From a virus, in IMG/VR virus record IMGVR_UViG_3300012351_000002, positions 1 to 40,571 of that record: a stretch of 40,571 nt of DNA, one strand, 5' to 3'. This document shows, piece after piece, positions 14,276 to 32,231 of the stretch. Position numbers and translations under genes: made by a program. Numbering within the stretch: position 1 is the stretch's first letter; each line of letters opens with the position of its first letter. The notes under the pieces were generated by a model that ran no database searches, was not told the DNA's origin, and saw nothing but the letters and a program-made list of their open reading frames with translations.

Positions 14276-14307
14276 CTCAGTTTACTTCACCACTGAACGA
14301 GAAACAA
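14276..14307 (-). promoter_or_regulatory. Promoter with overlapping dyad operator
   Basis: On the minus strand a -35-like TTGTTT (14307-14302), 17 bp, then TAAACT (14284-14279). The dyad CTCAGT-N10-ACTGAA (14276-14297) covers the -10 and spacer. The -35 lies inside the stem of the terminator at 14297-14344, so upstream termination and new initiation share bases. Confidence 0.55.
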
Positions 14308-14344
14308 CCCCCCGCGTCCGAAGACATGAAGGGTTGTTTCTCGT
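14297..14344 (-). terminator. Terminator after the I36 inhibitor gene
   Basis: A perfect 14-bp stem: ACGAGAAACAACCC at 14297-14310 and its complement at 14331-14344, with a 20-nt loop. It lies 45 bp after the stop of the minus-strand gene ending at 14389. The AT-containing foot of the stem gives a partial T-tract on the minus strand. Confidence 0.65.
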
Positions 14345-14388
14345 CCGGCGCGGCCTTCCCCGGCGATCCCCGGACCCGCGCCGGTTGA

Positions 14389-14760
14389 TCAGTTGGAACG
14401 GAAGTACGAGGTGATGTCGTTGTTGAAGGCCGTACTCATCGCGCCCCTGCTGAGCGGATAGATGTGTCCCGGCGTGGTCTCGCACGAGCCCCCGTCGTAC
14501 ACGAACCAGTCGCTCAGCGAATTGTTGATGATGTAGGAGGCCTTGTTCCTGCTGGCCGTGGAGAGCTGGTAGCACACGGTCTGAGCATGCCCGGTCACCG
14601 ATGCCCATGCCAGGAAGCCGGTCCCGTCCGCGTTGTCGTACCAGCAGATATAGCCGGAAGGGCAGGCCGTGTCCGCGAACGCTGCCCCCGGTTCGCATCC
14701 CTGATCCAGTCCGACGGCCAGAAGGGCGACGGCGAGCAACGAGGTGATCTTCTTGAACAT
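14389..14760 (-). CDS. Secreted protein of the peptidase inhibitor I36 type
   Basis: 123 residues. It has a clear signal peptide (MFKKITSLLAVALLAVGL, cleavage probably after AFA at residue 29). The mature part reads CPSGYICWYDNADGTGF, with further cysteines at 63 and 93 and the KASYIINNSLSDWFVY segment. This is the beta/gamma-crystallin-like pattern of family I36, whose type member is the Streptomyces metalloproteinase inhibitor SMPI. AGGAG lies upstream. It would act outside the cell and is not needed to build a virion, so it is likely cargo. It is the last gene before a terminator, and a papain-like hydrolase gene precedes it. Actual inhibitory activity is not shown. Confidence 0.7.
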   Translation of the reverse strand: MFKKITSLLAVALLAVGLDQGCEPGAAFADTACPSGYICWYDNADGTGFLAWASVTGHAQTVCYQLSTASRNKASYIINNSLSDWFVYDGGSCETTPGHIYPLSRGAMSTAFNNDITSYFRSN

Positions 14761-14768
14761 GGATTCTC

Positions 14769-15356
14769 CTAGGGCTTGATGACTTGAGTACCGGGCAGCG
14801 ACAGCAGGCGCCCGTACAGCGCCGATGGCGTGACGTCCTGCGGAAGCCTGCCATCCGTGAACATGTGGAACCCGGCATCGCTGAGCGCCTGGTCGGCCAG
14901 TTGCGAGCAGATCATGTGCTCGCTGGAGGTCACGTACTCCCGGACCGACAGCGGATCGATACCAAGCCGGAGCGCGGTCAGCGCCGCGTAGTCCAGGAAG
15001 GAATACGGCGTGCCGAGATAGCTCACAGCCGCTGCGGCAACTCGCAGCGCCATGCCGTTGTAACCGGCGACGTATGCGGGTCGGAGGTAGGCGTAATCCT
15101 TCGTCCAGTAGTCCGCGGTCAGCTCGACATCCTCGGCGCCGCCCGGCATGGCCTGCATGAGCCGGGGACCCGCGCGGAGGACGCCGGGAGTGCCGTACAT
15201 GTCCTTGGCTGCTTGCACCACCACACCGACATGGTGCGGGTAGCCCGGCTGGCCGAGGAACGTCTGACCGGCCAGGATCAGCAGGTCCGCGCTCCACGGC
15301 GTGACATGCCGGGCGAACATGATGTCCCCCGGCAGCAGGTCGGCGAGGGCGCTCAC
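14769..15356 (-). CDS. Permuted papain-like (YiiX/NlpC-P60-type) hydrolase
   Basis: 195 residues from a GTG at 15356 that overlaps the upstream stop (GTGA) and has GGAGG just before it. The order LLPGDIMFAR, then PHHVGVVVQA, then YLGTPYSFLDYAAL, then MICSQLADQAL is that of circularly permuted papain-fold enzymes: the histidine of HHVG comes before the nucleophile cysteine of ICSQL. Such enzymes cut amide or ester bonds in lipids, peptides or cell-wall material. No signal peptide is seen, so it probably acts in the cell or as a delivered protein. Confidence 0.65.
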   Translation of the reverse strand: MSALADLLPGDIMFARHVTPWSADLLILAGQTFLGQPGYPHHVGVVVQAAKDMYGTPGVLRAGPRLMQAMPGGAEDVELTADYWTKDYAYLRPAYVAGYNGMALRVAAAAVSYLGTPYSFLDYAALTALRLGIDPLSVREYVTSSEHMICSQLADQALSDAGFHMFTDGRLPQDVTPSALYGRLLSLPGTQVIKP

Positions 15357-15565
15357 GCCTCCGTCCAGCCGGGAAGCGGATCGTACGGTTCTGGCACCCT
15401 GACCGGACTGGACAGGAGGCCAGAACCGCACGTCTTGCAACGCAAGCCTTGCGGCCACTGAACGACTCCCGGCGCGATGATCGGGATCGGGATGATCGTG
15501 TCCGCCGAAGACTCGCATTCATCGTTCACGCACTGCACTCGCAGATGTTTCGCTCGATCGCTCAT
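15353..15565 (-). CDS. Zinc-ribbon protein
   Basis: 70 residues. The ATG at 15565 has GAGGGGATGAG upstream. Two cysteine pairs (CVNDEC and CKTC) flank a 30-residue hydrophobic middle (IIPIPIIAPGVVQW), a zinc-ribbon layout. Its function is unknown. It is translationally coupled to the papain-like hydrolase gene. Confidence 0.6.
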   Translation of the reverse strand: MSDRAKHLRVQCVNDECESSADTIIPIPIIAPGVVQWPQGLRCKTCGSGLLSSPVRVPEPYDPLPGWTEA

Positions 15566-15636
15566 CTCATCCCCTCGATGACGAACCGCCCCAGACGGCA
15601 TGCCATGCAAGGCAAGATTCCGGGGCGGAGACTCGG

Positions 15637-15942
15637 TCAGTCCTGCGACGGCTCGATCAGGCTCGGCACTGCCGAGGCGGCAACCCGCACACGCTCCGAG
15701 CGGATCTTCTTCTTCAGCAGGAGTTCGACGACTTCAAGGTCACCGGTGATCGACAGCACGGTGCGCACGTCGTCGCCGTTGATGCCCTGCGTCTCGGTGA
15801 ACGTGGCCGAGAAGGTGGCATCAACGGTCTCCGCCGGGAACTTCCGGACGGCGTAGGCGATGATGTCCAGATCCCCCGCCACGTAGGTGACGAAGTCCTT
15901 GGTCTCCGCGTTGGTGACCGACAGCAGATAAGCGCCGCTCAT
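15637..15942 (-). CDS. Hypothetical protein, 101 residues
   Basis: The protein is threonine/valine-rich and probably beta-stranded in the first half (LLSVTNAETKDFVTYVAGDL, ATFSATFTET), then has a helical charged segment (VVELLLKKKIRSERVRV). AGAGAGGAAC lies upstream. No family is recognised. It stands behind a pair of strong hairpins and may be controlled by them. Confidence 0.55.
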   Translation of the reverse strand: MSGAYLLSVTNAETKDFVTYVAGDLDIIAYAVRKFPAETVDATFSATFTETQGINGDDVRTVLSITGDLEVVELLLKKKIRSERVRVAASAVPSLIEPSQD

Positions 15943-15974
15943 GTGTTCCTCTCTTCACGGCACTCTGCCGCTCT

Positions 15975-16022
15975 GCTGACTTTGCCTCACGGGAAAGTTC
16001 TGTGGCATGAGGCAAAGTCAGC
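15975..16022 (-). repeat. Perfect 15-bp inverted repeat in a 5' leader
   Basis: GCTGACTTTGCCTCA (15975-15989) and its exact complement (16008-16022) with an 18-nt loop. It lies 32 bp ahead of the start at 15942. It could be a transcript hairpin or a protein-binding dyad; it lacks a T-run. Confidence 0.6.
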
Positions 16023-16041
16023 ACAACGTCAGGATCCGTGA

Positions 16042-16097
16042 CCCGCCCCGGATTACGCACTTAAGCCAGAGGAGCAGAGTCCTCTTACCGGGGCGGG
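16042..16097 (-). terminator. Branched GC-rich terminator after gene 16111-16683
   Basis: CCCGCCCCGG (16042-16051) pairs with CCGGGGCGGG (16088-16097). A second small stem, AGAGGA/TCCTCT (16068-16085), forms inside the loop. It lies 14 bp after the stop of the minus-strand gene. GC-rich stems without a T-run are common terminators in actinobacteria. Confidence 0.6.
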
Positions 16098-16110
16098 CGC
16101 TTTCAGCGGA

Positions 16111-16683
16111 TCAAGCGATTGTGGCGGACCAGAGCCACGCCTCGAAGTCGCCCTTGATCGTCTTGCCGGTCCGGGTGAGCGTCAGGCGCTTGCCGACGAG
16201 CTGGATCCGGTTCGACAACTTCGCGTCCCGGATGGCCGCCTTGATGGCCGTGAGCTGCGCACCGGAGGCGAACACGCCCCGGAGACCTTCGTCCGAGTCG
16301 ATGCCTTTGTCCAGGAGCTCCGCCTGACTGAGCCGGTAGTCCGTCTGGAGCACGAACACCGTATCCATGCACGGACTGAGCGGCTTGCCGTCCGGTCCGG
16401 TGGTCTTCTCGGTGGGCTTTCCGTCAGCCCCCCAGAACTTCAGGGCTCCGACTCCGCCTGCCTTGTAGAAGCGGGACTGCCGGTCTTCCGGCGCCTTGGT
16501 GATGACGCCGGTCCGCGACGTGCCGACACCCATTGTCTTGTCGAACAGCGAGACGAGTTTCTCGCCACCGAACAGGGGGTCGTACCCCTCGTTGTTCCCG
16601 GTGAGCTGATCGGTCTGCGGAGCGTTGCTCTGCGGTCCGGCCGCGGCTACTGCCGCCGCTGCCTCAGCAAATGCACTGGTCAT
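16111..16683 (-). CDS. Conserved actinophage protein, possible single-strand DNA-binding role
   Basis: 190 residues. After an alanine-rich start it reads LFGGEKLVSLFDKTMGVGT, a QSRFYKAGGVGALKFWG segment and DTVFVLQTDYRL, and ends VGKRLTLTRTGKTIKGDFEA then WLWSATIA. Strand-rich proteins with this order are frequent in Streptomyces phages near recombination and helicase genes, and I suspect an OB-like fold. I cannot see a diagnostic ssDNA-binding motif. It stands alone between two hairpins, suggesting its own level of expression. Confidence 0.6.
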   Translation of the reverse strand: MTSAFAEAAAAVAAAGPQSNAPQTDQLTGNNEGYDPLFGGEKLVSLFDKTMGVGTSRTGVITKAPEDRQSRFYKAGGVGALKFWGADGKPTEKTTGPDGKPLSPCMDTVFVLQTDYRLSQAELLDKGIDSDEGLRGVFASGAQLTAIKAAIRDAKLSNRIQLVGKRLTLTRTGKTIKGDFEAWLWSATIA

Positions 16684-16724
16684 GCGTGGTTCCCTTCGAA
16701 AGTATCTAGAGGTATTCGGTTGGT

Positions 16725-16778
16725 GGTGAGAAGCGGTACAGGTCCCGACAATCGACGGTTAATGTACCGCTTCTCACC
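16725..16778 (-). terminator. Perfect 16-bp stem-loop after the tRNA-like cluster
   Basis: GGTGAGAAGCGGTACA (16725-16740) is exactly complementary to 16763-16778, with a 22-nt loop. On the minus strand it follows the tRNA-like cluster and lies 41 bp before the start at 16683. It may end the tRNA transcript or control the next gene. There is no clear T-run. Confidence 0.55.
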
Positions 16779-16883
16779 GGCTAGATCAGAGCTGGCGCTC
16801 CGATCTTAGCGGTATTGCAGTCTTTCCGTTGGCCCTCCGCTCATGATCGGAGCACTTGTCCTCATGGCGAACCACAGAACCGC
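16779..16883. other. Non-coding stretch next to the tRNA-like cluster
   Basis: I see no convincing gene, ribosome binding site or repeat here. Together with the hairpin at 16725-16778 and the tRNA-like elements to 17395 it makes a gene-free interval of about 760 bases (16684-17447). Confidence 0.5.
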
Positions 16884-16945
16884 GCCACCGCCGGGAGTCG
16901 AACCCGGCCTAACGCCTTCCGGCTTCCCATACCGGGTACGGTGGC
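16884..16945 (-). tRNA. tRNA-like element, probably Pro(GGG), apparently lacking a D-arm
   Basis: Only 62 nt long. GCCACCG and CGGTGGC form a perfect 7-bp acceptor stem. CCGGG-TTCGACT-CCCGG is a canonical T-arm. The only 5-bp stem with a 7-nt loop and a U33 equivalent is CCGGT-ATGGGAA-GCCGG, giving anticodon GGG. Only three bases lie between acceptor and anticodon stem, so no D-arm remains, and the variable region is 11 nt. CCA is not encoded. An alternative fold with a small D-arm leaves no proper anticodon loop. Confidence 0.5.
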
Positions 16946-17099
16946 ATATTCAGTTGTGATGCACTGGCCTAACCTCCTACCAGCATGCGAGACCCGCGAA
17001 ATTATGAGCCATGCAGCCCGGTCGCCGCGTGCTCCGCCAGCCTTCATCTGCATTGACGGTCCGTTCGGTTCCCGGTGCCTCGCTTCCCTTGCTGTGCGC

Positions 17100-17188
17100 G
17101 ATCGAGGGAGGAATCGAACCTCCAGCCCCTCGCGGCTCAACCCCGGTCAAGAGGCGAGTCCCGCTCGGCTGACCCAGCAGACACGATC
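17100..17188 (-). tRNA. tRNA-like element with canonical T-arm, isotype unresolved
   Basis: GGAGG-TTCGATT-CCTCC is a perfect T-arm. The following CTCGATC pairs with GATCGTG 89 nt upstream at six of seven positions, giving an acceptor stem. The body contains AGCCGAGCGG, like a D-loop, and CCTCTTGACC, where anticodons CTT, TGA or GAC can be drawn, but none gives a full 5-bp stem with a 7-nt loop. The length fits a long-variable-arm tRNA or a degenerate copy. Confidence 0.4.
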
Positions 17189-17235
17189 TGTTGCCCGAAC
17201 TCAAGCGCTGACTAGGCGCCGAATTAGTATTCCGT

Positions 17236-17297
17236 GCCCCTGCCGGGAATCGAACCCGGCGCGTCGCCTTGCGTGCGGCAACATGCCATTTGGGGGC
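17236..17297 (-). tRNA. tRNA-like element with canonical T-arm, short body
   Basis: CCGGG-TTCGATT-CCCGG is a perfect T-arm, and GGGGC after it pairs with GCCCC 62 nt upstream (five pairs). The body holds GGC-ATGTT-GCC and the pair GTTGCC/GGCGAC around an 8-nt loop, which do not match normal D and anticodon arms. Like its neighbour at 16884-16945 it is about 10 nt too short for a normal tRNA. Isotype not assignable. Confidence 0.4.
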
Positions 17298-17315
17298 TTA
17301 CCAGGCAGAGAACGG

Positions 17316-17395
17316 GATCCGGGAGGGACTTGCACCCTCTAGCCAAAATCGCTAATCACTTGAAACCGAATCAGTTCCGGCAGCGCTACCGGTTC
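17316..17395 (-). ncRNA. tRNA-like element nearest the promoter, with outer 12-bp clamp
   Basis: GAGGG-TGCAAGT-CCCTC resembles a T-arm with a non-standard loop. GAACCGG and CCGGATC form an acceptor-like stem (six of seven pairs). Outside it, GGCAGAGAGCGG (17411-17400) pairs with CCGTTCTCTGCC (17315-17304), a 12-bp stem that clamps the element. It is first in the transcript from the promoter at 17423-17451. No standard anticodon arm could be drawn. Confidence 0.35.
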
Positions 17396-17422
17396 CGTTC
17401 CGCTCTCTGCCTTACGAGAGGA

Positions 17423-17456
17423 ACTCTACGCGTCCTCAGTCCTGAAGTCAACCGGA
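17423..17456 (-). promoter_or_regulatory. Promoter for the tRNA-like cluster, with operator-like site
   Basis: Minus strand TTGACT (17451-17446), exactly 17 bp, TAGAGT (17428-17423). The dyad family site CTCAGT-N10-ACCGGA (17435-17456), one half perfect, covers the -35 and spacer. It overlaps the 3' end of the upstream gene. Confidence 0.6.
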
Positions 17457-19637: not shown

Positions 19638-21517
19638 GACTCACCTCTCATCGATTGCATGAAGGCGACCACCGGATCGATCCGGCGGGACGCGATGTGC
19701 ACCGAGATCAGATCCGATACGTCACCCTTGGTCATCTCCCCGGTCACCACGATGCCCATTCTGGCCGCGGTAGCCTTCTGCGCATCGGAGACCTCACCAC
19801 GCCGCCAGGACTTCTTCTTCCCGGCCAGAGAGAGGGCGGCCGGACCACCGAGTTCCTCCATGACCTCCTCCGCCCACGAGCACGCCATGTCCAGCGGCAG
19901 GCCCTGATGTTCGGTGACATCCCCCTGTGCGCCTGCATGATTGCCGCCGCAACCGCATGTGCGCCCGGGCAGGACGTAGGTGTCTTGCCCGGGGCATCCG
20001 GCGAACAGGAAGCCTGCGGGGGACTGAGTCAGCCACGCCACGTCGTACGCGCCCGGTGTCTCGGACTCGACGATCAGCACGTAGGCTTCCTTGCCGACCG
20101 GCAGGAAGTAGGTCCCGCCGCTCGTCTTCAGCCACGCGCCGACGCCGGTCCGGGCGAGCGGATCGAAGTCTTCCGCAGCCACCGCGCCGTAGTACTGCTC
20201 CTGCTGAAGCTGTCCGCCCTCCGCTTCCTCCATGGCCTCGATGGCGTCTTCCATCTCCAGCAGGGAGAGATCGTCATCGTCGATCTCCTCCACATCCGGC
20301 CGACTGGAGAGATCGATCAGTGTCCGGAGATTGTGCGTGCGCGAGACTCCAACGACGTCCAGAACGAGACAGTCCCCACGCGCATCCGATGGAAGCGAAA
20401 GGTCCGGGCGGAGCCCGCGACCGACCATTTGCTGATAGAGAGGAGCGGACTGAGTCGGGCGGGCGTTGACGACACACGAAACCGTAGGTTCATCGAATCC
20501 TTCCGTCAGGACTCCGCAGTTGTGCACTACCTGAATCTCTCCGGCGTGCAACTTCTTGAGAATGAGCCGACGCTCCTCACGAGGCGTGCCACCATGCACT
20601 ACTGCCGAAGGAATGCCAGCCTCGTTGAACGCTTCCGCGCCATGACGGGCCGTCTCGACCAGCGGCCAGAAAGTGAGTCCCTTACGATCGGACGCGTGCT
20701 CAAGGTAGGCGTTAGCGATGACGCTAGGCGCGAGCGCCTTATCCAGAGCATCGCCGAGAGCTGCATCTTGATAATCTCCTCCACTCTTCTTGACGGCGCT
20801 CAGGTCGAGATCCGGCACCACGATGCGCTTGCCGCGGACGTCGAGCAGGTAGCCGCGGCGGATGCCGAACGCAATGCCGCGCTGGAACGTGCACTCCTGC
20901 CAGACGTCGGAGAGCTTCTGCCGGTCCCCGCGGGCGAGGGTCGCCGTGAAACCGGCGACCTTGACGGCGGTCTCTCCGCCGTTGTACAAGCCGGTTCCCC
21001 GGCAGTCCCAGCACTTCCCGCAGGTGTCCGCGCCGCCCGCGCCGGTTCCGCGACACTCCGAGCAGTCGGCGGGGAATGCCCCGAAATGCGTGAAGATGTC
21101 TTTGTACGTTTTCGCCACGGCATGATGCGCTTCATCACATATGAGAAGTCCCACGTTGCGAATCTGGTTGCGGCGCTTGGCGGAGCGCAACGATTGGACC
21201 GAGGCCACGATCACCCTGGCCGTGATCTCGTTGCGCTCCGCCTTGACGATGCCTGCATGCAGTGCGGGCGCGACGTCCTTGATCTTCTTGTACGCCTGCT
21301 GCACGAGTTCGTCGGTGTGCACGAGCACGAGCACGCGCTTGCTGACGTTGCTCTGCACCCATTGAGCGATCAGGTGCGCGAAGATTACCGTCTTGCCGAG
21401 CCCGGTCGCGAGCATCATCGGGACTCGCGTGTCACCTCCGTCCCAGCGCCGATGCAGATCGGCGATGGCCTCTAGCTGATAGTCACGCAATGGCAGGATC
21501 GCCGAGTGCCGGTTCAT
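19634..21517 (-). CDS. DEAH-type superfamily 2 helicase with DnaJ-like zinc insert
   Basis: 627 residues from the ATG at 21517, which overlaps the upstream stop. The start LRDYQLEAI is a Q-like motif. Walker A is ATGLGKT (37-43), motif II DEAH (128-131), motif III TAT (191-193) and motif VI QMVGRGLRPD. Between motifs II and III lies CSECRGTG ... CWDCRGTG (152-176), a CxxCxGxG zinc-knuckle pair like DnaJ. The C-terminal 200 residues include an acidic stretch and CGCGGNHAG. The protein resembles phage helicases of the RadD/type III restriction-like group and probably remodels DNA in replication or recombination. Confidence 0.82.
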   Translation of the reverse strand: MNRHSAILPLRDYQLEAIADLHRRWDGGDTRVPMMLATGLGKTVIFAHLIAQWVQSNVSKRVLVLVHTDELVQQAYKKIKDVAPALHAGIVKAERNEITARVIVASVQSLRSAKRRNQIRNVGLLICDEAHHAVAKTYKDIFTHFGAFPADCSECRGTGAGGADTCGKCWDCRGTGLYNGGETAVKVAGFTATLARGDRQKLSDVWQECTFQRGIAFGIRRGYLLDVRGKRIVVPDLDLSAVKKSGGDYQDAALGDALDKALAPSVIANAYLEHASDRKGLTFWPLVETARHGAEAFNEAGIPSAVVHGGTPREERRLILKKLHAGEIQVVHNCGVLTEGFDEPTVSCVVNARPTQSAPLYQQMVGRGLRPDLSLPSDARGDCLVLDVVGVSRTHNLRTLIDLSSRPDVEEIDDDDLSLLEMEDAIEAMEEAEGGQLQQEQYYGAVAAEDFDPLARTGVGAWLKTSGGTYFLPVGKEAYVLIVESETPGAYDVAWLTQSPAGFLFAGCPGQDTYVLPGRTCGCGGNHAGAQGDVTEHQGLPLDMACSWAEEVMEELGGPAALSLAGKKKSWRRGEVSDAQKATAARMGIVVTGEMTKGDVSDLISVHIASRRIDPVVAFMQSMRGES

Positions 21518-21975
21518 GAGATCCGTCCCGCCGTCTCGCAATCGTGCGGCATCCCGCCCGTCACGCCGCACGCTGGACACTTCGCCTCTAGTCCCTGAAC
21601 TTGCCGTGTGGTCAGCTCCGCCAGCCACACGCGCGCCGCCGGGGCTTTTAGTGGGGAGCGATATCCGATGGTGATACCGGCCGCCTTCAGCACGGCATTA
21701 GCCTTTTGAAGTTTCTGCTCCCAGGCGTGTTGCTCTGGAGTGACGAAACGGTTGTTGCTGCTTGGATAGTCTTCGTTTCCCTCGTCCTGCGCGTCACGCC
21801 GCATACGCCAAGAGGTCCCGTTACCACTCAGCTCGACCCACACGCGAGAAGCCTTGACCACATGCGCGGTGACTGGCTCCCTCTCTGCGCCCCGCAAACG
21901 GGATCGCAAGATGATGACCTCGTCCCCTGCCTTGATCTCGCCGAGCAGGGGACGTTCGTTACTGAAGCTCTCCAT
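21514..21975 (-). CDS. Conserved protein with small beta barrel and C-terminal zinc knuckle
   Basis: 153 residues. Residues 15-60 (AGDEVIILRSR, THVVKASRVWVELSGNGTSW-like strands) suggest an SH3/KOW-like barrel. Residues 85-115 are helical. The end, CPACGVTGGMPHDC, is a zinc-binding knuckle. Its start is only 7 nt from the -10 box, so the mRNA should be leaderless. It is the first gene of the unit that includes the helicase. Its function is unknown; nucleic-acid binding is likely from the architecture. Confidence 0.65.
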   Translation of the reverse strand: MESFSNERPLLGEIKAGDEVIILRSRLRGAEREPVTAHVVKASRVWVELSGNGTSWRMRRDAQDEGNEDYPSSNNRFVTPEQHAWEQKLQKANAVLKAAGITIGYRSPLKAPAARVWLAELTTRQVQGLEAKCPACGVTGGMPHDCETAGRIS

Positions 21976-21979: not shown

Positions 21980-22012
21980 GTCAGTCTACTTCACTACTGA
22001 GTGCCCTGTCAA
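21980..22012 (-). promoter_or_regulatory. Strong leaderless promoter with dyad operator
   Basis: Minus strand TTGACA (22012-22007), 18 bp, TAGACT (21988-21983), then 7 nt to the ATG at 21975. The dyad GTCAGT-N10-ACTGAG (21980-22001) covers the -10 and start. The promoter lies inside the 3' end of the upstream gene. Confidence 0.75.
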
Positions 22013-23271: not shown

Positions 23272-23919
23272 TCAGCTCTCTTCAGTGATGGCGATGAGTG
23301 CGGCCAGAGTGCCCGGCAGGTCGCGCCGACGCCAATAGGCGGCATTGGATACGGAATCTGCAGCCAAGGCTGCATAGGTTATGGCATCGGCTGCACGGGT
23401 TGCTGCATCGGCTGCACGGGTTGCTGCATCGGCTGCACGGGTTGCTGCATCGGCCGCGACATGGGCTGTGGCGGATGTTCGCTCCGTCAGCATCCGCTCC
23501 CAGGCGGGTTGTGCGGAGCCGGGAATCGAGGCAAGCACCGCTTCATCGCTCAGCGCCCCCCACATCCAGTTCAGCAGGAAATCTACCCGGCGGCGAGTAA
23601 CTTCCGGCCCGGCTGCGGATCCGGCGATACCGGCCGCGGCTTCCCGCCAGGCCATGGAATTGCGGATCTTGTCCGGCATGGCGTCCTGAATCCGGATTAC
23701 CCAGCAGCGAATCACTTCGCAGATACACGGATGCGGGCCGTCGTCCAGCTTGCCGGTCAGCGTGAGCAGGATCTCGGAGATTGTGCATGCCTCGCCGGAG
23801 CCGGGAATCTTTGCACTTCCCCGCCCGGTGATCAGCGTGAGCCCGGAAGAGGTCAGGGCCGCACGGACGGCGGCGCGCTGCTCCGGTGTAAGGAATGAAG
23901 GGCTGGTCTCGGTGGTCAT
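23272..23919 (-). CDS. Alanine-repeat protein with heptad tandem repeat
   Basis: 215 residues. The N-terminal part (SFLTPEQRAAVRAAL, LTGKLDDGPHPCICEVI, VDFLLNWMWGALSDEAVL) resembles a family common in Streptomyces phages. From about residue 150 it has an AADAATR heptad repeated in tandem and then a helical end with AAYWRRRDLPGTLAALIA. The repeats should form a long alanine-rich helix. Function unknown. The repeat number is likely to vary between related phages because the DNA units are identical. Confidence 0.6.
   Translation of the reverse strand: MTTETSPSFLTPEQRAAVRAALTSSGLTLITGRGSAKIPGSGEACTISEILLTLTGKLDDGPHPCICEVIRCWVIRIQDAMPDKIRNSMAWREAAAGIAGSAAGPEVTRRRVDFLLNWMWGALSDEAVLASIPGSAQPAWERMLTERTSATAHVAADAATRAADAATRAADAATRAADAITYAALAADSVSNAAYWRRRDLPGTLAALIAITEES
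23384..23454 (-). repeat. 21-bp tandem repeat inside a gene
   Basis: Three identical 21-bp units (23384-23404, 23405-23425, 23426-23446) and eight bases of a fourth. Plus-strand unit GCATCGGCTGCACGGGTTGCT. They encode the AADAATR heptads and keep the frame. Confidence 0.9.
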
Positions 23920-23930: not shown

Positions 23931-24236
23931 CTACTTCGGTTGCGGAAAATTGAGATTGGTCAGATCGCCCTTGGCGATGATGATCTGACTAAGCGGCTTG
24001 CCTTCCCGGAACGCGTTCCATGCCCGGATGAACAGAGCGAGTTGTTCTGGACGGCTGATCCGGTCGAGACGGATGCGCGCCATCCGGTTACGCAAGGTCA
24101 GCACAGCGGAGCGATCCGGCAGGTTTGCGCCGGAGATGTACTGATCGAAGAACTGATGTGCCCGCTCCTGTGTGCCTGCTCCTGCTTGATATTCGAGTAC
24201 AGGGGTCACGGTGACCCGCGTATAGGAGATAGGCAT
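23931..24236 (-). CDS. First gene of the leftward early unit, unknown
   Basis: 101 residues. The ATG at 24236 was chosen because AGGAG lies 11 nt upstream, inside the mRNA leader predicted from the -10 at 24283-24278. It reads MPISYTRVTVTPVLEYQAG, then ERAHQFFDQYISGANLP, RLDRISRPEQLALFIRAWNA and IIIAKGDLTNLNF. It is small, soluble and alpha/beta. As the first product of the leftward transcript under a double operator it may be an early regulator, but that is inference from position. Confidence 0.6.
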   Translation of the reverse strand: MPISYTRVTVTPVLEYQAGAGTQERAHQFFDQYISGANLPDRSAVLTLRNRMARIRLDRISRPEQLALFIRAWNAFREGKPLSQIIIAKGDLTNLNFPQPK

Positions 24237-24248
24237 GATGACACGCTC

Positions 24249-24270
24249 CTCAGTCGGAAGTCGTACTGAC
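24249..24270. promoter_or_regulatory. Operator O1 of the divergent control region
   Basis: CTCAGT-cggaagtcgt-ACTGAC, a near-perfect member of the dyad family. It lies just downstream of the predicted start of the leftward transcript (about 24271), where a bound protein would block it. Confidence 0.65.
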
Positions 24271-24277
24271 GAGGGGT

Positions 24278-24307
24278 ACCGTAGCACATGCTCAGTTGAC
24301 TTCGCAA
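24278..24307 (-). promoter_or_regulatory. Leftward early promoter
   Basis: Minus strand TTGCGA (24307-24302), 18 bp, TACGGT (24283-24278). It starts the leftward gene block, with operator O1 directly downstream and O2 (24291-24312) over its upstream half. Confidence 0.5.
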
Positions 24308-24325
24308 CCAGGTTGCGGGCATGAT
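24291..24325 (+). promoter_or_regulatory. Rightward early promoter with operator O2
   Basis: TTGACT (24296-24301), 18 bp, CATGAT (24320-24325). The operator CTCAGT-N10-ACCAGG (24291-24312; left half perfect, right half poor) contains the -35. It is back-to-back with the leftward promoter. Confidence 0.55.
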
Positions 24326-24369
24326 GGGAGCATGATCCGGAGACACCGGGCGATGAGGGAGGTGGGCAG

Positions 24370-24684
24370 ATGCCCCCGGTCTACAAGGAGCAGACACAGT
24401 TGCTGATCGCTCCGCATCTCAAGACGCGGCTGGAGGCGCTCGCGCTGCTGCGGGACGAGAGTCAGGCGGACGTGTCGCGCTGGCTGATCGAAGCGGCGCT
24501 GCCCATGCTGGAGAACTCGCACTCCGGCCAGCTCAGCCAGCTCCGCGAGGCGCTGGAGGCGATGGGCGTGGACTACAGTGCCGCAGTGCATGCCATGTTC
24601 ACCACCAAGCCGCGGATCCGGCTGGCCGACCTGCTCCAGGAGGACGGCGCGCCGCGCATGCAGTTCCCCGGCGTCATCCGCTGA
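24370..24684 (+). CDS. Ribbon-helix-helix regulator candidate
   Basis: 104 residues, ATG preceded by GGGAGG seven bases upstream. Residues about 7-45 fit the RHH (Arc/CopG) pattern: a short strand (TQLLIAPHLK), then helix RLEALALLRDESQ and helix VSRWLIEAALPML. A helical C-terminus (LREALEAMGVDYSAAVHA) could serve for oligomerisation. RHH proteins bind dyad operators as dimers of dimers. The gene lies immediately beside the double operator at 24249-24312, which makes it the best candidate for binding the genome-wide dyad. It is followed by a strong terminator, so it is a one-gene unit. Confidence 0.6.
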   Translation: MPPVYKEQTQLLIAPHLKTRLEALALLRDESQADVSRWLIEAALPMLENSHSGQLSQLREALEAMGVDYSAAVHAMFTTKPRIRLADLLQEDGAPRMQFPGVIR

Positions 24685-24793: not shown

Positions 24794-26866
24794 ATGGATG
24801 TAACCGGACGCGGCTGGACTCCGGAGGAGACCGAAGCCCTCAAGATCGCCGGAGAGATGATCGACGCCGGTATCCCGGTGTTCGCGGCTGCACCCAACCC
24901 GGACCGGCCCGGGACGTACTACCTGCCGAAAGAGTGGGAGAAGACGGTCCCCTCGCGCACGTGGCTGGAACGGTGGCGGCCAGGGTGGGCGCTCGGGGCC
25001 GTCGGCGGCCACGTGGCGGACTTCCTGGACTTCGATCCGCGCAACGGCGGAGACCAGTCGCTGAAAGAGCTGGAGATCCAGGGGCAGGTGCCCCGGGTGT
25101 TCGGCGTGCAGAGCACGCCGTCCGGCGGGACGCACCTGATGATCAGTCTCACCGGGGAACGCAAGTCGACAGGGTTCATGCCGGGAGTCGATCTCCAGTC
25201 CGGCAACGCGGAGGGATTCGGGCGGGGATTCGTCTACATCGCGCCCACCGTGCGCCCTAGCAAGGCACCGGAGACGCTCGGCGAACTCCGGGCGTATACC
25301 TGGGAGCAGGCTCCCGATCTGGGATACCTGAAGGAGTTCGCACCCGGCGCGGATGACACCCTGGACGGCGTGATTGCCCGGGTGCATGCGGCCCGTGCAA
25401 CCCCTCCTGAGCTGCGGCGCAACCCCATGCAACCCGGTGCAACCCCTGCCGACTCGCTCTTCGCGCAGGCCTCGCGGACCGGCGTGCGGGAATTCACCAC
25501 CGATCAGGCGAGGGAGTTCTGTGAGCCTCATCTGGAAGCACTCCAGAAGGCTCCGATCGGCCAGATAGAGGAGAGCGCCAACCGGGCTGCGGTGGCATTG
25601 GCGCACTTCGTGCCGGAGGTGTGGACTGCGGAGTTCGCCTTCTCCGTGCTGAGCATCGCGCTGAGTGCTACCGCCTACGATCCGGCGCATCCGGCCAGTA
25701 GCTGGGCGGCGGAGAAGTTCCGGGCAGTGCTCGACGGCACCCGGCCTGCACTGGACGACTGGAAGGCCGTACTCCGGCCGTCCGTGACGGAGGTGACGGC
25801 TGCGGAGCCTGCGCCGGATGCGGTAGCCGCGCTGCTGGCGGAGATGCGCAAGCCTGCCGGGATCATCGCGCAGGCCCCGCCGAAGTATCTGATCAAAGGC
25901 CTGCTGAACATGGACTCGGAGTCCTGGATCATCGGCGAGCCCGGCAGTAAGAAGAGCTTCGTGGCGGCCGACATGGCAGCTCATGTGGCCGCGGGGTTGT
26001 CCTGGCAGGGGCTGAAGGTGCGGCAGGGGGGGGTCGTGATGATCGTGGCGGAGGGTGGCGGAGGGCTGGGGCCGCGGCTGAAGGCGTGGGAGAAGGAACA
26101 CGGGGGGGCGGCGATGAGCGACCGGATCGACATCCTCACCCGGCCAGTGCAGGCCGCGGACGCGAAGGCCTGGGCGGTGCTGCGAGAGGCGTGCAGACGG
26201 CTGGCACCCGTGCTCGTGGTGATCGACACGCAGGCGCGCGTGACGGTCGGGCTGGAGGAGAACTCGGCCAAAGAGATGGGCATCTACGTGGAAGCGGTGC
26301 GTTCGATCCGGGAGGCGACCGGGGCGTGCGTGCTGACCGTGCATCACACCGGGCGCAAGGGCGGGGACGCGCGGGGGTCGAGCGCGATCGACGGCGCGCA
26401 GCACACGGAGCTGAAGGTCTCCTCGGCCAGAGGATCACTCGACGGGGTGCTGTCCGGCGAGAAACAGAAGGACATGGCGATCATGGACGACATCGGGCTG
26501 CGCTTCGCAGTGCACGATGTGGACAAGGACGACGACGGGGAGGTGGTATCCTCGCTCGCGCTGATCTCCGGAGAGTTCCGCAAGCGTGCAGGCCGCGGGG
26601 ACGCGCTCGCGCAGGAGGCGTGGGAGAAGGACAGCCCGAGCGTCACGGACATGGTGCTCAGGGCGCTGAGCGATCATGGGCTGGACCGGGGCGTGACCAA
26701 GAGCGAGGCACGGGCTGTGATCGTCGAGCGTTTCTACGGGGGTGTGTCCGAGCGTCTCAAGAAGTCGACGTGGACGTCGGCATGGAACCGGGCGTTGCAA
26801 CGGGATTCGGTGGTCAACGTCGGTGGGGAGCGATTCACGGTGACGGCACTTGACGCTGATGAGTAG
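24794..26866 (+). CDS. Bifunctional primase-polymerase / RepA-like helicase
   Basis: 690 residues. The N-terminal 190 residues look like a prim-pol (archaeo-eukaryotic primase) domain: FLDFDPR (77-83) provides the metal-binding acidic pair, TPSGGTHL (108-115) the next motif. The C-terminal part is a RecA-like hexameric helicase: IIGEPGSKKS (about 379-388) is the Walker A and VLVVIDTQAR (about 470-480) the Walker B, with HHTGRKGGDARGSSA after it. It would unwind and prime the phage DNA. No phage polymerase is present, so host polymerase must extend. AAAGGAT precedes the start. Four iteron-like motifs lie within the gene at 25396-25445. Confidence 0.82.
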   Translation: MDVTGRGWTPEETEALKIAGEMIDAGIPVFAAAPNPDRPGTYYLPKEWEKTVPSRTWLERWRPGWALGAVGGHVADFLDFDPRNGGDQSLKELEIQGQVPRVFGVQSTPSGGTHLMISLTGERKSTGFMPGVDLQSGNAEGFGRGFVYIAPTVRPSKAPETLGELRAYTWEQAPDLGYLKEFAPGADDTLDGVIARVHAARATPPELRRNPMQPGATPADSLFAQASRTGVREFTTDQAREFCEPHLEALQKAPIGQIEESANRAAVALAHFVPEVWTAEFAFSVLSIALSATAYDPAHPASSWAAEKFRAVLDGTRPALDDWKAVLRPSVTEVTAAEPAPDAVAALLAEMRKPAGIIAQAPPKYLIKGLLNMDSESWIIGEPGSKKSFVAADMAAHVAAGLSWQGLKVRQGGVVMIVAEGGGGLGPRLKAWEKEHGGAAMSDRIDILTRPVQAADAKAWAVLREACRRLAPVLVVIDTQARVTVGLEENSAKEMGIYVEAVRSIREATGACVLTVHHTGRKGGDARGSSAIDGAQHTELKVSSARGSLDGVLSGEKQKDMAIMDDIGLRFAVHDVDKDDDGEVVSSLALISGEFRKRAGRGDALAQEAWEKDSPSVTDMVLRALSDHGLDRGVTKSEARAVIVERFYGGVSERLKKSTWTSAWNRALQRDSVVNVGGERFTVTALDADE
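25396..25445 (+). repeat. Iteron-like repeats inside the primase/helicase gene
   Basis: TGCAACCC at 25396-25403, 25428-25435 and 25438-25445, plus a CGCAACCC variant at 25418-25425. The segment CTCCTGAGCTGCGG between the first two copies is found again at 27748-27761, so a block of about 30 bp is shared with the candidate origin. Confidence 0.75.
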
Positions 26867-26887: not shown

Positions 26888-26904
26888 TAGGTCATGTGAT
26901 ACGG

Positions 26905-26939
26905 AAAGGGCACCGCTCCTGTCCGAGCGGTGCCCTTTT
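26905..26939 (+). terminator. Rho-independent terminator after the primase/helicase gene
   Basis: Perfect 14-bp stem AAAGGGCACCGCTC (26905-26918) with 26925-26938, six-base loop, and a T-run (26936-26939). It is the most canonical terminator in the window. Confidence 0.9.
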
Positions 26940-26958
26940 ATCGAGAGGTGGAACAACC

Positions 26959-27621
26959 ATGTCCGATATTACCCCCTTCAATTTCGAGGGTCACGGCCTG
27001 CGCTGGACCATGATCGAGGGACAGCCCTGGTTCGCCATCGTGGATGTGTGCAAGGTGCTGGGCATCATCAACCCGAGCATGGTCGGCGATCGGCTTGACT
27101 CCGATGACCTCAGCGCGATTGGACTCATCGACTCGATGGGTCGTGAGCAGCGGACTCGCATCACCAACGAGTCGGGGCTGTATGAGTTGATCATCAGATC
27201 GAACAAGCCGGACGCCAAGCGCTTCCGGCGCTGGATCACTTCTGAGGTACTCCCTGCCCTGCGGCGTACTGGCTCGTACTCGATCATGCCGGTCGAGCCG
27301 GAGGACGACCTCGATCTGATGGTCAAGGCTATCGGTCATATCAGGGAGCATCGCCAGCGTATCGCCAGCCTGGAGAGCGGTCAGCGCGAGCTTGCCGCGA
27401 AGGTGAGTGCGTCGGCAGGCGAGTACGACGAGTTCACCACGCTGGCGTACGCGAAGCTGAACGGTCTGCCGACCGACCGGGTGAGCTGCCAGAAGCACGG
27501 GTTGCGTGCGACCGGGCTCATGAAGCAGAGGGGCGGTGCTCCACGCAAGGTGCAGGACGCGACTTTCGGGGCAATCAACGTGTATCCGCTGGGGATCCTG
27601 CACGAGACGGCGGGCGGGTAA
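26959..27621 (+). CDS. BRO-N / antirepressor-type protein
   Basis: 220 residues. The ATG at 26959 is preferred because an earlier in-frame ATG lies within the terminator and GAGAGGTGG lies just upstream. Residues 1-105 match the BRO-N domain: FNFEGHGLRWTMIEGQPWFA, then DVCKVLGI, NESGLYELIIRS, and FRRWITSEVLPALRRTGSY. The C-terminal part is a helical DNA-binding-like region (SLESGQRELAAKV, CQKHGLRATGLMKQ). Such proteins antagonise phage repressors or bind DNA to control replication. It lies between the terminator and the iteron array. Confidence 0.82.
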   Translation: MSDITPFNFEGHGLRWTMIEGQPWFAIVDVCKVLGIINPSMVGDRLDSDDLSAIGLIDSMGREQRTRITNESGLYELIIRSNKPDAKRFRRWITSEVLPALRRTGSYSIMPVEPEDDLDLMVKAIGHIREHRQRIASLESGQRELAAKVSASAGEYDEFTTLAYAKLNGLPTDRVSCQKHGLRATGLMKQRGGAPRKVQDATFGAINVYPLGILHETAGG

Positions 27622-27896: not shown

Positions 27897-27930
27897 CTCA
27901 GTTGACTTATCCACTGGCCGATGAGAGACT
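27897..27930 (+). promoter_or_regulatory. Leaderless promoter with dyad operator
   Basis: TTGACT (27902-27907), 17 bp, GAGACT (27925-27930), then 6 nt to the ATG at 27937. The dyad CTCAGT-N10-ACTGGC (27897-27918) contains the -35. Confidence 0.65.
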
Positions 27931-27936
27931 CGATCC

Positions 27937-28488
27937 ATGAGCGAACCAGGCGAGATGAACGATGCAGACGAAACCACCGAGACCACCGACCGGTACGTGA
28001 TCGAGATCGAGGAGGACTTCGTCCGCGTCACGGACACCAGCCCGGTCTTCTGGCCGGGCAGCAGCATGCGGAAGCCGGATCGGATCGCAGAGATCTTCGA
28101 AGGACCGGACCGGCTCCTGCTGGCCGCCGGGCGCGCGGCGGAACTGAACGCCGGGAAGCCGGAGTTGCCGCCCCCCGGCGACTCGCGAGACCCGCGCGAG
28201 TTCCTGACCAAGACGCTTCCGGCGTACGCCCGGGTTCAGCGGCTGGCGAGCATGCTGACCGAGGCTGCGGACGTCGAGCGGCGCGCCGGAGAGCTCCTGC
28301 TGGCCGATGAGGCGATCCTGGACCGGGCGCGTTCGCTCCGGATGCGACTGGAAATGGCCTTGAGAGACGCGCAGAGCGCCGAAACGGCTGAGACGGTGCA
28401 CCGGGACACCCGGGAGGCCCTGCGCCCCCCTCTGGCCGCTTCAGGGCGCGCGCCGGTATCGGCTCTCAGCAAGCCCGGACCGTACTAG
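27937..28488 (+). CDS. Hypothetical early protein, 183 residues
   Basis: The ATG is 6 nt from the -10 box, so the mRNA is probably leaderless. The N-terminal 45 residues are acidic (MSEPGEMNDADETTETTDRY) and lead to a short beta region. The middle is helical (LLLAAGRAAELNAG, VQRLASMLTEAADVERRAG), perhaps coiled coil. The end is proline/serine-rich. No recognised domain. Its place beside the origin and the RusA gene suggests a role in replication or early takeover. Confidence 0.6.
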   Translation: MSEPGEMNDADETTETTDRYVIEIEEDFVRVTDTSPVFWPGSSMRKPDRIAEIFEGPDRLLLAAGRAAELNAGKPELPPPGDSRDPREFLTKTLPAYARVQRLASMLTEAADVERRAGELLLADEAILDRARSLRMRLEMALRDAQSAETAETVHRDTREALRPPLAASGRAPVSALSKPGPY

Positions 28489-28592: not shown

Positions 28593-28599
28593 AAGCTCA

Positions 28600-28633
28600 A
28601 TCAGTTGACATCTGAACTGAGCACGCGTAGACT
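28600..28633 (+). promoter_or_regulatory. Consensus leaderless promoter with dyad operator
   Basis: TTGACA (28605-28610), 17 bp, TAGACT (28628-28633), 6 nt to the ATG at 28640. The dyad ATCAGT-N10-ACTGAG (28600-28621) covers the -35. It is the best match to a sigma-70 consensus in the window. Confidence 0.8.
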
Positions 28634-28639
28634 GATCGC

Positions 28640-28843
28640 ATGAACAAGTTGAGCGAAGCCGCAGAGTCCGCCCTGATCGCCGCGAAGTGCAACCGGCAGG
28701 GTACGGTGGTGACGGCGGACGCGGTAGTGATTACCGAGCTTTTCGACCAGGGCCTCGTCGGCGCCGGTGACGGCCTGACCCGCAAGGGCACGATCGCTCG
28801 CGAGCGGCTCGTGCTGGCGCGCGAGGAAGCCGCCTTCGCATGA
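28640..28843 (+). CDS. Small early protein, 67 residues
   Basis: A leaderless start. It contains SEAAESALIAAKCNRQGTVV, ADAVVITELFDQGLVGAGDG and LTRKGTIARERLVLA. The order helix, turn, helix, then a basic helix suggests a small winged-helix-like protein, and G..LTRKGTI resembles a wing segment. No family assigned. It overlaps the RusA-like gene by 4 bases. Confidence 0.55.
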   Translation: MNKLSEAAESALIAAKCNRQGTVVTADAVVITELFDQGLVGAGDGLTRKGTIARERLVLAREEAAFA

Positions 28844-29840: not shown

Positions 29841-29893
29841 GAGGAGAATGTTGAAACGTGTCATAGCTCAGATGGTGCACTTCAGTGGTACTC

Positions 29894-29927
29894 TTCAGTT
29901 GTGAAGTGGACTGAAGCCATGTAGACT
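29894..29927 (+). promoter_or_regulatory. Leaderless promoter with dyad operator
   Basis: TTGTGA (29899-29904), 17 bp, TAGACT (29922-29927), 6 nt to the ATG at 29934. The dyad TTCAGT-N10-ACTGAA (29894-29915) covers the -35. A second TTCAGT lies at 29881. Confidence 0.7.
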
Positions 29928-29933
29928 ACTGGT

Positions 29934-30173
29934 ATGACGATGAAGCGGAACGCCAAGACCGAGGTTCAGAACGCAACCCGGAGCCTGGACGCGGTCCGCA
30001 GCGTCAGCCCGAAGCAGATCGCGAAGTTCGGCAAGTATCTCCCCCTCGAAGAGGGCCGGGCCTACCTGGTCAAGATGGCCCGGGATACGCGGACGCACGG
30101 CCGGACGCGAGCGAGTGTTACTGAAGCCAAGGCCGCGGCGCGGCGCACAGCCGGGCGGCGCCGGGTGTTCTGA
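29934..30173 (+). CDS. Small basic protein, 79 residues
   Basis: Leaderless start. Strongly positive: MKRNAKTEVQNATRSLDAV, then VSPKQIAKFGKYLPLEEG and a C-terminus rich in R and K (RTRASVTEAKAAARRTAGRR). It is likely to bind nucleic acid. No recognised domain. Confidence 0.55.
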   Translation: MTMKRNAKTEVQNATRSLDAVRSVSPKQIAKFGKYLPLEEGRAYLVKMARDTRTHGRTRASVTEAKAAARRTAGRRRVF

Positions 30174-30182
30174 GCGGAGGAG

Positions 30183-30198
30183 TTGCCCGAAAGGGCAA
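30183..30198 (+). terminator. Small GAAA-tetraloop hairpin
   Basis: TTGCCC (30183-30188), GAAA loop, GGGCAA (30193-30198), then ACTTTC. It lies nine bases after the stop at 30173. Compact, probably a terminator. Confidence 0.55.
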
Positions 30199-30208
30199 AC
30201 TTTCGTGC

Positions 30209-30240
30209 AATGCTATGATGTGCATGTGCACACATGGTAG
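30209..30240 (+). promoter_or_regulatory. Possible promoter ahead of the small terminase
   Basis: TATGAT (about 30213-30218) is a good -10 box; no clear -35 lies 17 bp upstream. A TGTGCACA palindrome follows. Weak evidence. Confidence 0.3.
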
Positions 30241-30282
30241 AGTGACGGTTCCATGATCATTTAGTGAGCGAAGGTCGGGGGC

Positions 30283-30753
30283 ATGGCGTCTTCAGGTCAT
30301 GCTGAAGGGCTCAGCGAAGTAGAAGCCGAGATCTACCGGCTTACGGTGGTCAACCGGCTGAGCCAAACGGCGATTGCCGAGCGTCTCGATATGACGCAGC
30401 AGAATGTCTCGTATCATCTCAAGGCCGCGCGTGCCAAACTTCCGCCGGTCGATCTGGATGCCATTCGCCGAGAGAGTCTCGAAATGCATCTCGCTATTCA
30501 GCGCAGGGCGCTCGATCTGGCCGAGATGGACGGCGCGCCGGTTACCGCGGGCAAGGATGGCGATCTCGTGGTCGATCCGAAGACCGGTCAGCACGTCCGG
30601 GACTATTCGCTGAGACTTCAAGCATTCGAAGCCGCGCGCAAATCGGACGTCGAGATCCGCAAGCTCTACGGCCTGGACGCGGCCAGCAAGACCGAGGTCA
30701 GCGGCTCGGTGCGGTACGAGGTGGCATCCGTTGATCTTGATGCGCTCAGTTGA
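30283..30753 (+). CDS. terS: Terminase small subunit-like HTH protein
   Basis: 156 residues. Residues about 15-50 form a helix-turn-helix (VVNRLSQTAIAERLDMTQQ then NVSYHLKAARAKL), followed by helices and a C-terminal strand region (SGSVRYEVASVDLDAL). Small terminase subunits recognise the packaging site and have this layout. It immediately precedes the large subunit. The HTH could also belong to a transcription regulator, but position and length favour terminase. Confidence 0.7.
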   Translation: MASSGHAEGLSEVEAEIYRLTVVNRLSQTAIAERLDMTQQNVSYHLKAARAKLPPVDLDAIRRESLEMHLAIQRRALDLAEMDGAPVTAGKDGDLVVDPKTGQHVRDYSLRLQAFEAARKSDVEIRKLYGLDAASKTEVSGSVRYEVASVDLDALS

Positions 30754-30785
30754 CATCAGCACGTTTTATGGCGCGTAGCTAGTCT
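30745..30785 (+). promoter_or_regulatory. Dyad half-site and possible leaderless promoter for terminase
   Basis: CTCAGTTGACA (30745-30755) has the left half and TTGACA of the operator family, but the right half is lost (ACGTTT). A -10-like TAGTCT lies at 30780-30785, exactly 6 nt from the ATG at 30792. The TTGACA is 24 bp from that -10, too far for a normal promoter. Confidence 0.4.
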
Positions 30786-30791
30786 CAACAC

Positions 30792-32204
30792 ATGACCCAT
30801 GCGATCAAGCAACTCCGGCTTCGGGGCGCGGCTCATCAAGTCTTGACGAATCGCGCCAAAGAGTTGCTGATCGCCGGTCCTGCGGGCACGGGCAAGAGCT
30901 TCGCGTGCCTCTGGAAAGTCCACCTGATGGCGCTTCAGAATGGCCAGTGCCCCAAGGGCTGCACGGTCGAGCACGAGCATCGCACCGCTGGCATGAAGGC
31001 GCTGCTCGTGCGCAAGACACACGTCTCGCTCACCGCTACCGGGCTGGCCACTTTCCGGGACCACATCTTGCCCGAAGCGCTCGCTTCCGGGCTCGTGCGC
31101 TGGTTCGGCGGCAGCGGGGAGAAGCCGCCCGGCTACATCTACGCCAACGGCAGCACGGTGTCGGTGGGTGGCATGGACAACCCGACGAAGATCATGTCCA
31201 GCGAGTACGACCTGATCTATGTCCAGGAGGCCACCGAGTTCACGCCGGACGACTGGGAGAAATGCACAACGCGTCTGCGTAACGGTGTCGTGTCGTTTCA
31301 GCAGCTTCTCGCGGACTGCAACCCGGAGGGGCCGGACCACTGGCTGAAGAAGCGCTGCGACGACGGTCAGACCACCATGCTGTACGCGCTGCACACCGAT
31401 AACCCGAAGCTCTTCGATGACGCCGGTCAGCCCACCGTCAAGGGCGCCGAGTATCTCGACACGCTGAGCAAGCTGACCGGCGTGCGGCGCCATCGGCTGT
31501 ACGGCGGTATCTGGGCCGCGGCCGAGGGCGTCATCTACGAGAACTGGAATCCTGCGGTTCATCTCATCGATCGCAAACGCTTCCACTTCGACTGGACGCG
31601 CGTGTGGGCGATCGACTTCGGGTACACGAATCCGTTTGTCTGGCAGCAGTGGGTGATCGATCCCGACGGCCGGTTGATCTTGGAGAAGGAGATCTACCGG
31701 TCCGGGCGCATCGTGGCGGATCATGCGCAGGAGATCTTGAAGGTGGTCACGGCCAACGCAGACCGGGCATACCTGCCGGACGGGAAGATCGATCCGGGCA
31801 AGTCGTATTGGATCTACCCGCGCCCGCTGAAGATCATCTGCGATCACGATGCTGAGGACCGCGCCACGCTGGAACGCGAACTTGACATGGGCACCACTGC
31901 CGCGGTCAAGACGGTGTCCGATGGCATTCAGGCCATGATGCAGCGCCTGGAGGTCCAGCCTGACGGGCGCGCCCGGATGGAGATCTGCCGGGACGCCCTG
32001 ACGGACCGGGATGCCCCTCTGGCCGATCGTGGCCTGCCGCTGGGCTTCGTCGGCGAGATTCCCGGCTACACCTGGGAGCCCGCGCCGGACGGCAAGCCGA
32101 GCAAGGACCGGCCGCTGAAGGTGAACGATCACGCGATGGACGCTGCACGCTACGTGGTAGCCGATCAGGATCTGCACTCGACCTACCGGGTGCGCTACTT
32201 GTGA
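30792..32204 (+). CDS. terL: Terminase large subunit
   Basis: 470 residues. AGPAGTGKS (28-36) is the Walker A, LIYVQEATEF (about 141-150) the Walker B with catalytic glutamate, and AIDFGYTNP (about 272-281) opens the RNase H-like nuclease domain; NDHAMDAARY (about 443-452) holds a late acidic residue. The enzyme drives ATP-dependent DNA packaging into the prohead and cuts the concatemer. The family fits phages with headful or cohesive-end packaging; the sequence alone does not say which. Confidence 0.93.
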   Translation: MTHAIKQLRLRGAAHQVLTNRAKELLIAGPAGTGKSFACLWKVHLMALQNGQCPKGCTVEHEHRTAGMKALLVRKTHVSLTATGLATFRDHILPEALASGLVRWFGGSGEKPPGYIYANGSTVSVGGMDNPTKIMSSEYDLIYVQEATEFTPDDWEKCTTRLRNGVVSFQQLLADCNPEGPDHWLKKRCDDGQTTMLYALHTDNPKLFDDAGQPTVKGAEYLDTLSKLTGVRRHRLYGGIWAAAEGVIYENWNPAVHLIDRKRFHFDWTRVWAIDFGYTNPFVWQQWVIDPDGRLILEKEIYRSGRIVADHAQEILKVVTANADRAYLPDGKIDPGKSYWIYPRPLKIICDHDAEDRATLERELDMGTTAAVKTVSDGIQAMMQRLEVQPDGRARMEICRDALTDRDAPLADRGLPLGFVGEIPGYTWEPAPDGKPSKDRPLKVNDHAMDAARYVVADQDLHSTYRVRYL

Positions 32205-32231
32205 TCTTGCTCAGTAGCAATGTAGACTGAG
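32199..32231 (+). promoter_or_regulatory. Leaderless promoter with perfect dyad operator
   Basis: TTGTGA (32199-32204, overlapping the terminase stop), 18 bp, TAGACT (32223-32228), 6 nt to the ATG at 32235. CTCAGT-agcaatgtag-ACTGAG (32210-32231) is the only member of the family with both halves perfect. Confidence 0.7.

Follow-up and report, generated by a model that had tools for sequence, protein, structure and literature searches.

Palindromic promoter sites and a candidate ribbon-helix-helix-like repressor in a tailed-phage genome known from metagenomes

The window analyzed here, a 40,571-bp stretch that makes up the whole of IMG/VR virus record IMGVR_UViG_3300012351_000002, carries ten 22-bp palindromic sites on promoters of both strands. 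Judging from sequence comparisons, these are very probably the operators of one repressor, the ribbon-helix-helix (RHH)-like product predicted from the gene at 24370-24684, which would act on its own promoter as well. An earlier reading made from the letters alone (the sequence-only reading) had listed ten such 22-mers as a repressor regulon; all ten are present where it placed them, and the comparisons below support its proposal in the form of a genome-wide operator family with a phage-encoded predicted repressor. The sites and the two genes at the center of the argument are as follows, with counterparts in G001 and G002, two phages related through their terminase.

14276..14297: operator 1, with a probable minus-strand -10 (TAAACT) inside it; upstream of a small membrane-protein gene at 13853-14197 (minus strand); same -10 geometry at G001 18246
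17435..17456: operator 2, over the -35 (TTGACT) of a promoter on the minus strand (N17, TAGAGT) whose transcript would be non-coding and tRNA-like; counterparts at G001 21984 and G002 2280
21980..22001: operator 3, holding the -10 (TAGACT) for 21514-21975 (minus strand), with TTGACA at -35; same geometry at G001 25891
24249..24270: operator 4, immediately past the -10 of a leftward promoter (putative TTGCGA-N18-TACGGT) and before the gene at 23931-24236 (minus strand)
24291..24312: operator 5, TTGACTTCGCAA, with the rightward -35 TTGACT (through which the RHH product would regulate its own gene) and, on the opposite strand, the leftward -35 TTGCGA
24370..24684: plus strand, gene for the RHH-like candidate repressor, 104 aa, the proposed DNA-binding protein
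24794..26866: plus strand, primase-polymerase/helicase gene, directly 3′ of the repressor gene
27897..27918: operator 6, over the -35 (TTGACT) of a promoter that is probably leaderless (N17, GAGACT, N6, ATG at 27937)
28600..28621: operator 7, the top-scoring site, covering a -35 (TTGACA) followed by N17, TAGACT, N6 and ATG at 28640
29894..29915: operator 8, covering a -35 (TTGTGA) followed by N17, TAGACT, N6 and ATG at 29934
30745..30766: operator 9, one half degraded, with TTGACA ahead of the gene for the terminase large subunit (30792-32204)
32210..32231: operator 10, with perfect arms, holding the -10 (TAGACT) of a promoter, probably leaderless, that serves 32235-32609; the last promoter ahead of the head genes

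When the genome was scanned with a symmetric 22-column matrix, the ten sites were its ten best matches at 14.8-29.6 bits, with the next match at 8.2 bits. Shuffled sequence gave 0.45 matches above 12 bits, and the real sites thus far outnumber chance matches, a comparison that the sequence-only reading had proposed. Upon leaving each site out of training in turn, eight of the ten still ranked within 1-10, while 30745 ranked 14 and 24249 ranked 19. A matrix trained on 68 sites from ten relatives placed nine of the window sites at ranks 1-9 and 24249 at rank 12; as the window sites were part of the matrix used to collect that set, this check is strong but not fully independent. A loose scan for CTCAGT-N10-ACTGAG with up to 3 mismatches found 18 matches against 13.7 expected, which is not significant because the pattern ignores the conserved core.

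By our own gene calls, 8/10 sites are wholly intergenic and the other two run 9 bases into a gene end, compared to roughly 14% of 22-base placements expected by chance to be intergenic or to overlap a gene end similarly. No site lies inside a gene, and none was located in the tail or lysis block, the latter in agreement with the sequence-only reading. Nine of the ten lie on a promoter or no more than 58 bp from a start codon; for 14276 the distance is 79 bp.

Pooling the sites of the window, G001 and G002 gives a consensus near yCAGTTGACA-TGTCAACTGr. Its strongest columns are the arms CAGT and ACTG, and its core reads as a -35 hexamer on both strands. The center is conserved, as had been noticed, but its sequence is corrected from TGACTTC/GAAGTCA to TTGAC[A/T]TC, i.e., the -35 hexamer. 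At most sites an embedded TTGACA or TTGACT is followed by 17-18 bp and then a -10; at 21980, 32210, 14276 and G001 25891, arm and core instead give a -10, TAGACT or TAAACT. Whereas nine sites had been credited with a promoter box, a clear hexamer pair is seen for about eight: 30745 lacks a well-spaced -10 to go with its TTGACA, and the case of 14276 is weak. The placement on promoters of both strands holds, but a restriction to early genes does not, since sites also lie on the terminase promoter (30745) and on the last pre-structural promoter (32210). Paired operators (24249 and 24291 in the window) occur at a divergent promoter in the window, G001, G015 and G016, spaced 42, 43, 39 and 39 bp apart, respectively.

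At five of these promoters an ATG lies 6-7 bases after the -10 TAGACT or GAGACT (27937, 28640, 29934 and 32235 on the plus strand, 21975 on the minus strand). This short distance suggests that the transcripts starting there are leaderless.

The gene at 24370-24684 starts 58 bp after operator 24291, which contains the TTGACT of the RHH gene's promoter, so that the candidate repressor gene has an operator of its own, as it does in G001. The site family and a homologue of this gene occur together in at least ten related phages. Among terminase relatives, the homologue is present in G001 (50%, 11 sites) and G002 (38%, 8 sites), and G003 and G012 have neither operator sites nor a match to the protein.

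A set of 2.9 million viral contigs was scanned for an exact operator pattern, and high-GC contigs were taken further. Among the matches listed, all four multi-site contigs (G015, G016, G017 and G019) encode a homologue, with E values of 3e-5 to 3e-17, while none of the three contigs with a single convincing site (G018, G020 and G021) and 0/40 of the other pattern-match contigs do so. The eight-sequence protein alignment was too diverse for scanning, and sub-alignments were used in its place. The scan made with the protein alone brought four new contigs (L237, L239, L240 and L241). In each of them an operator precedes the homologue gene by 41-97 bp, and they have 2-8 sites apiece, compared to about 0 in shuffles. 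The dyad is thus present in related phages, where the sequence-only reading had suggested looking for it, and it comes with the homologue. Among the genes compared across relatives, only the RHH gene shows a distribution matching that of the sites; the primase-polymerase/helicase gene, for instance, is present in G003 and G012, both without sites. As far as computation goes, the reciprocal operator-DNA and protein searches agree in supporting 24370-24684, which the sequence-only reading had suggested as the binder. Because at least ten relatives have the site together with this one small gene, the gene very probably encodes the repressor of these promoters.

The predicted fold of the 104-aa protein fits a DNA-binding role of this kind. 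Pfam RHH_1 matches two of 12 family members (best E 1.5e-4), and the family profile weakly matches the CopG-family chain 7by2 (E 0.012). An AlphaFold monomer model (pLDDT 87) has, past a short stretch at the N-terminus, confident helices at 15-28 and 32-50, and the Foldseek list is weak but includes many RHH structures (VapB, CopASO, MatP, CdbA and CopG). Proteins of the RHH (MetJ/Arc/CopG) class are recognizable by profile or fold from a β-strand followed by two helices, and as dimers they contact the major groove through an intermolecular β-sheet. The matches above place the family in this class and give good but not conclusive support for calling the 24370-24684 product RHH-like.

A further relative, G004, encodes a diverged homologue (E 9e-6) and carries a diverged repeated promoter site, CTCATACAGTTGTCAACTA, which emerged from its promoter sequences.

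G004 (loci L091-L093 joined): CTCATACAGTTGTCAACTA-type element at 27608, 29476, 29920, 30516, 33234, 37384 and 43051

On sequence comparison, this element in a relative with a diverged repressor would be a natural specificity variant. No operator emerged from the promoter sequences of G003 and G012, and a de novo dyad search in G003, G004 and G012 returned mostly GC-rich noise. On locus L094, G012 has an open reading frame (ORF) with an RHH-like N-terminus (beginning KSVQTGIGFPRETLQRIDRLRAVFGKSRS) in the syntenic place upstream of the primase-polymerase/helicase gene.

Some results weigh against an RHH repressor acting through this operator family. The window protein itself has no match to Pfam RHH_1, no Foldseek match falls below E 0.001, and the syntenic RHH-like ORF of G012 is not accompanied by a recognizable operator set. 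In addition, pattern-based scans catch only relatives that retain the chosen peptides, and the family is therefore incompletely sampled.

At the level of sequence, we regard the site family, its overlap with promoters, the gene order and the co-occurrence with the protein as established; binding, repression, oligomeric state and purpose are what we infer from them. The repressor would bind the ideal form yCAGTTGACA-TGTCAACTGr as a dimer or a pair of dimers and, once bound, would exclude RNA polymerase, because the palindrome contains the -35 TTGACA or, in the other register, the -10 TAGACT. The hub would be the divergent control region 24236-24370, where operator 24291 is predicted to cover the -35 of the leftward operon and that of the repressor's own rightward operon, which runs into the primase-helicase gene. 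By occupying this shared control region, the repressor would hold down its own production as well as that of the replication protein. The other sites would let it limit leftward promoters too, along with the promoters of the terminase and head genes. The purpose may be to cap early expression and replication and to block a second genome. As late functions are also covered, an early-to-late switch fits less well than a program-wide governor or an immunity or carrier state.

Several known systems share parts of this design. In the copG-repB operon of pMV158, a small RHH protein is encoded directly upstream of a replication gene and cotranscribed with it, and it autorepresses the shared promoter and with it the whole operon (PMC5717011). 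The phage RHH gene is likewise directly upstream of the replication gene (primase-polymerase/helicase) in all 11 members whose contig extends that far. The CopG operator overlaps the -35, as the phage operator overlaps the -35 of the repressor promoter; gene order and an operator on its own -35 together point to a copG-repB design. Unlike CopG, which acts on one promoter of a small plasmid, the phage operator is found on about ten promoters of a tailed phage, and its sequence and the C-terminal part of the protein are unrelated to those of CopG.

The sequence-only reading had likened the sites to a stoperator system, a comparison that does not fit. Mycobacteriophage L5 of Cluster A has one repressor and many site copies genome-wide, with site and repressor diverging together; each of its sites is an asymmetric 13-bp sequence that points along transcription, and most lie away from promoters (PMC9283540, PMC6550527). 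The window resembles L5 in having one site spread across a phage genome and co-diverging with its repressor, but its sites are 22-bp dyads that sit on promoters of both strands. The L5 repressor, which blocks elongation at sites outside promoters, is a monomeric two-domain protein with a helix-turn-helix (HTH) and a stoperator domain, and the window protein is not of that kind. Being palindromic, promoter-bound and unoriented, and paired with a protein that lacks this architecture, the sites do not belong to an L5 system. Cluster A phages also carry integrase or parABS; no integrase or ParA was found in the genomes searched here.

A functional parallel is offered by the archaeal viral RHH regulators SvtR of SIRV1 and F55 of SSV1, which repress their own and several other viral promoters (PMC5569661). 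As proposed for the window, a viral RHH protein acts there on its own and on other viral promoters, but with archaeal transcription machinery, few sites and other sequences. Among actinophages, the repressor of the integrating, temperate Streptomyces phage phiC31 has many palindromic sites (conserved inverted repeats) at early promoters and is not known to be an RHH protein. Arc of phage P22 is a small RHH repressor whose dyad operator, some 21 bp long and occupied by two dimers, is confined to a single control region rather than spread genome-wide; both it and the window protein are small phage RHH or RHH-like proteins with a dyad operator, with no sequence relation established between them. 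What is new here is the protein family, the operator and the phage-wide reach, the principle being already known. The result supplies a specific candidate pair of repressor and operator for a lineage of phages known here from metagenomes alone, and the series of homologues in which protein and operator diverge makes the evolution of RHH specificity testable.

As to what the regulon is for, one reading that we hold to be possible but less likely than not is that, in a lineage of tailed phages without integrase or partition genes, a replication governor of the CopG kind came to act as master repressor. By putting a ceiling on replication, packaging and head gene transcription together, it would keep the genome in a carrier state that is self-limiting and plasmid-like; it would also block related incoming phages, and would include a tRNA-like non-coding transcript in its regulon. 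If true, a self-limiting repressor regulon without such genes would bear on how apparently virulent phages persist.

We think it unlikely, though still worth weighing, that the system is conventional immunity of a temperate or formerly temperate phage, with the RHH protein silencing a prophage as a lysogeny-maintenance repressor, like L5 Rep or SSV1 F55. This reading shares the operator-repressor claim and differs in purpose. It would account for the genome-wide coverage, terminase and head promoters included; RHH repressors are capable of such a role (F55, PMC5569661), and a BRO-type antirepressor gene is present at 26896-27621. Yet neither a tyrosine or serine integrase nor ParA was found (PF00589, PF00239 and PF13614, each unmatched in the records searched with it), which leaves the "temperate or formerly temperate" label of the sequence-only reading unproven. 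Homologues of the 24370-24684 protein were likewise absent from 50,697 phage records, 72,556 plasmids and the GTDB species genomes, the genome scans finding only homologues that retain the chosen peptides. Finally, the repressor gene lies first in the replication operon that it would repress, bearing the same operator, which is unlike a maintenance repressor.

That the palindrome is a mere promoter motif for the host or a phage-modified RNA polymerase, as its TTGACA or TAGACT and its location at start codons might suggest, is very improbable given that conservation is highest in its arms CAGT/ACTG, which lie beyond the -35 hexamer, that it falls variably on the -35, the -10 or beyond, and that it co-occurs with one protein family. 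RHH proteins function in plasmid partition and the RHH gene adjoins a replication gene, but centromere-like or replication sites for an RHH ParB-like protein are scarcely to be expected when ParA is unmatched in the records searched and the sites are scattered one per promoter rather than clustered. Equally slight is the chance that another phage DNA-binding protein is the binder: BRO, TerS and ProQ-like genes are present, beside some sites, but each was rejected, BRO being absent from G001, G002, G015 and G016, all with sites, TerS being present in the site-less G003 and G012, and the ProQ-like gene occurring among relatives only in G001.

The transcript assigned to the governor's regulon lies beside operator 2, where no long ORF is found.

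16690..17430: minus strand, stretch without a long ORF, downstream of operator 2, with three tRNA-like T-arms (GGTTCRAnTCC) and tRNA-like folds
tRNA-like counterparts: G001 21226-21296, G002 1326-1395, G016 21540-21622, G017 13712-13792, G019 32330-32410 and L240 1544-1630

Neither ARAGORN nor Rfam at the gathering threshold gave a match within 16690-17430. A T-arm lies within about 1 kb downstream of an operator in 9/9 genomes examined, and several of these elements are called as odd tRNAs.

The two ends of the record share an exact 123-bp overlap (1-123 = 40449-40571), which points to circular assembly, and the genome is probably that of a complete tailed phage, with a length near 40.4 kb and a GC content of 63%. 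A rightward block that starts at 32.8 kb and continues round the circle to 13.8 kb holds the head, tail and lysis genes; the genes for replication and early functions form a leftward block (24.2 to 13.9 kb) and a second rightward one (24.4 to 32 kb). A DNA similarity search of the window against phages gave no match, and the nearest portal protein among known phages is that of a Streptomyces phage (43%). In the leftward block, the C-terminal part of ORF 14389-15522 (minus strand) matches peptidase inhibitor family I36 (E 1.6e-7) after a signal-like stretch, and its product is possibly a secreted accessory protein. The product of 23272-23919 (minus strand) has an alanine-rich repeat (beginning AADAATRAADAATR), with DNA repeats at about 23390-23460.

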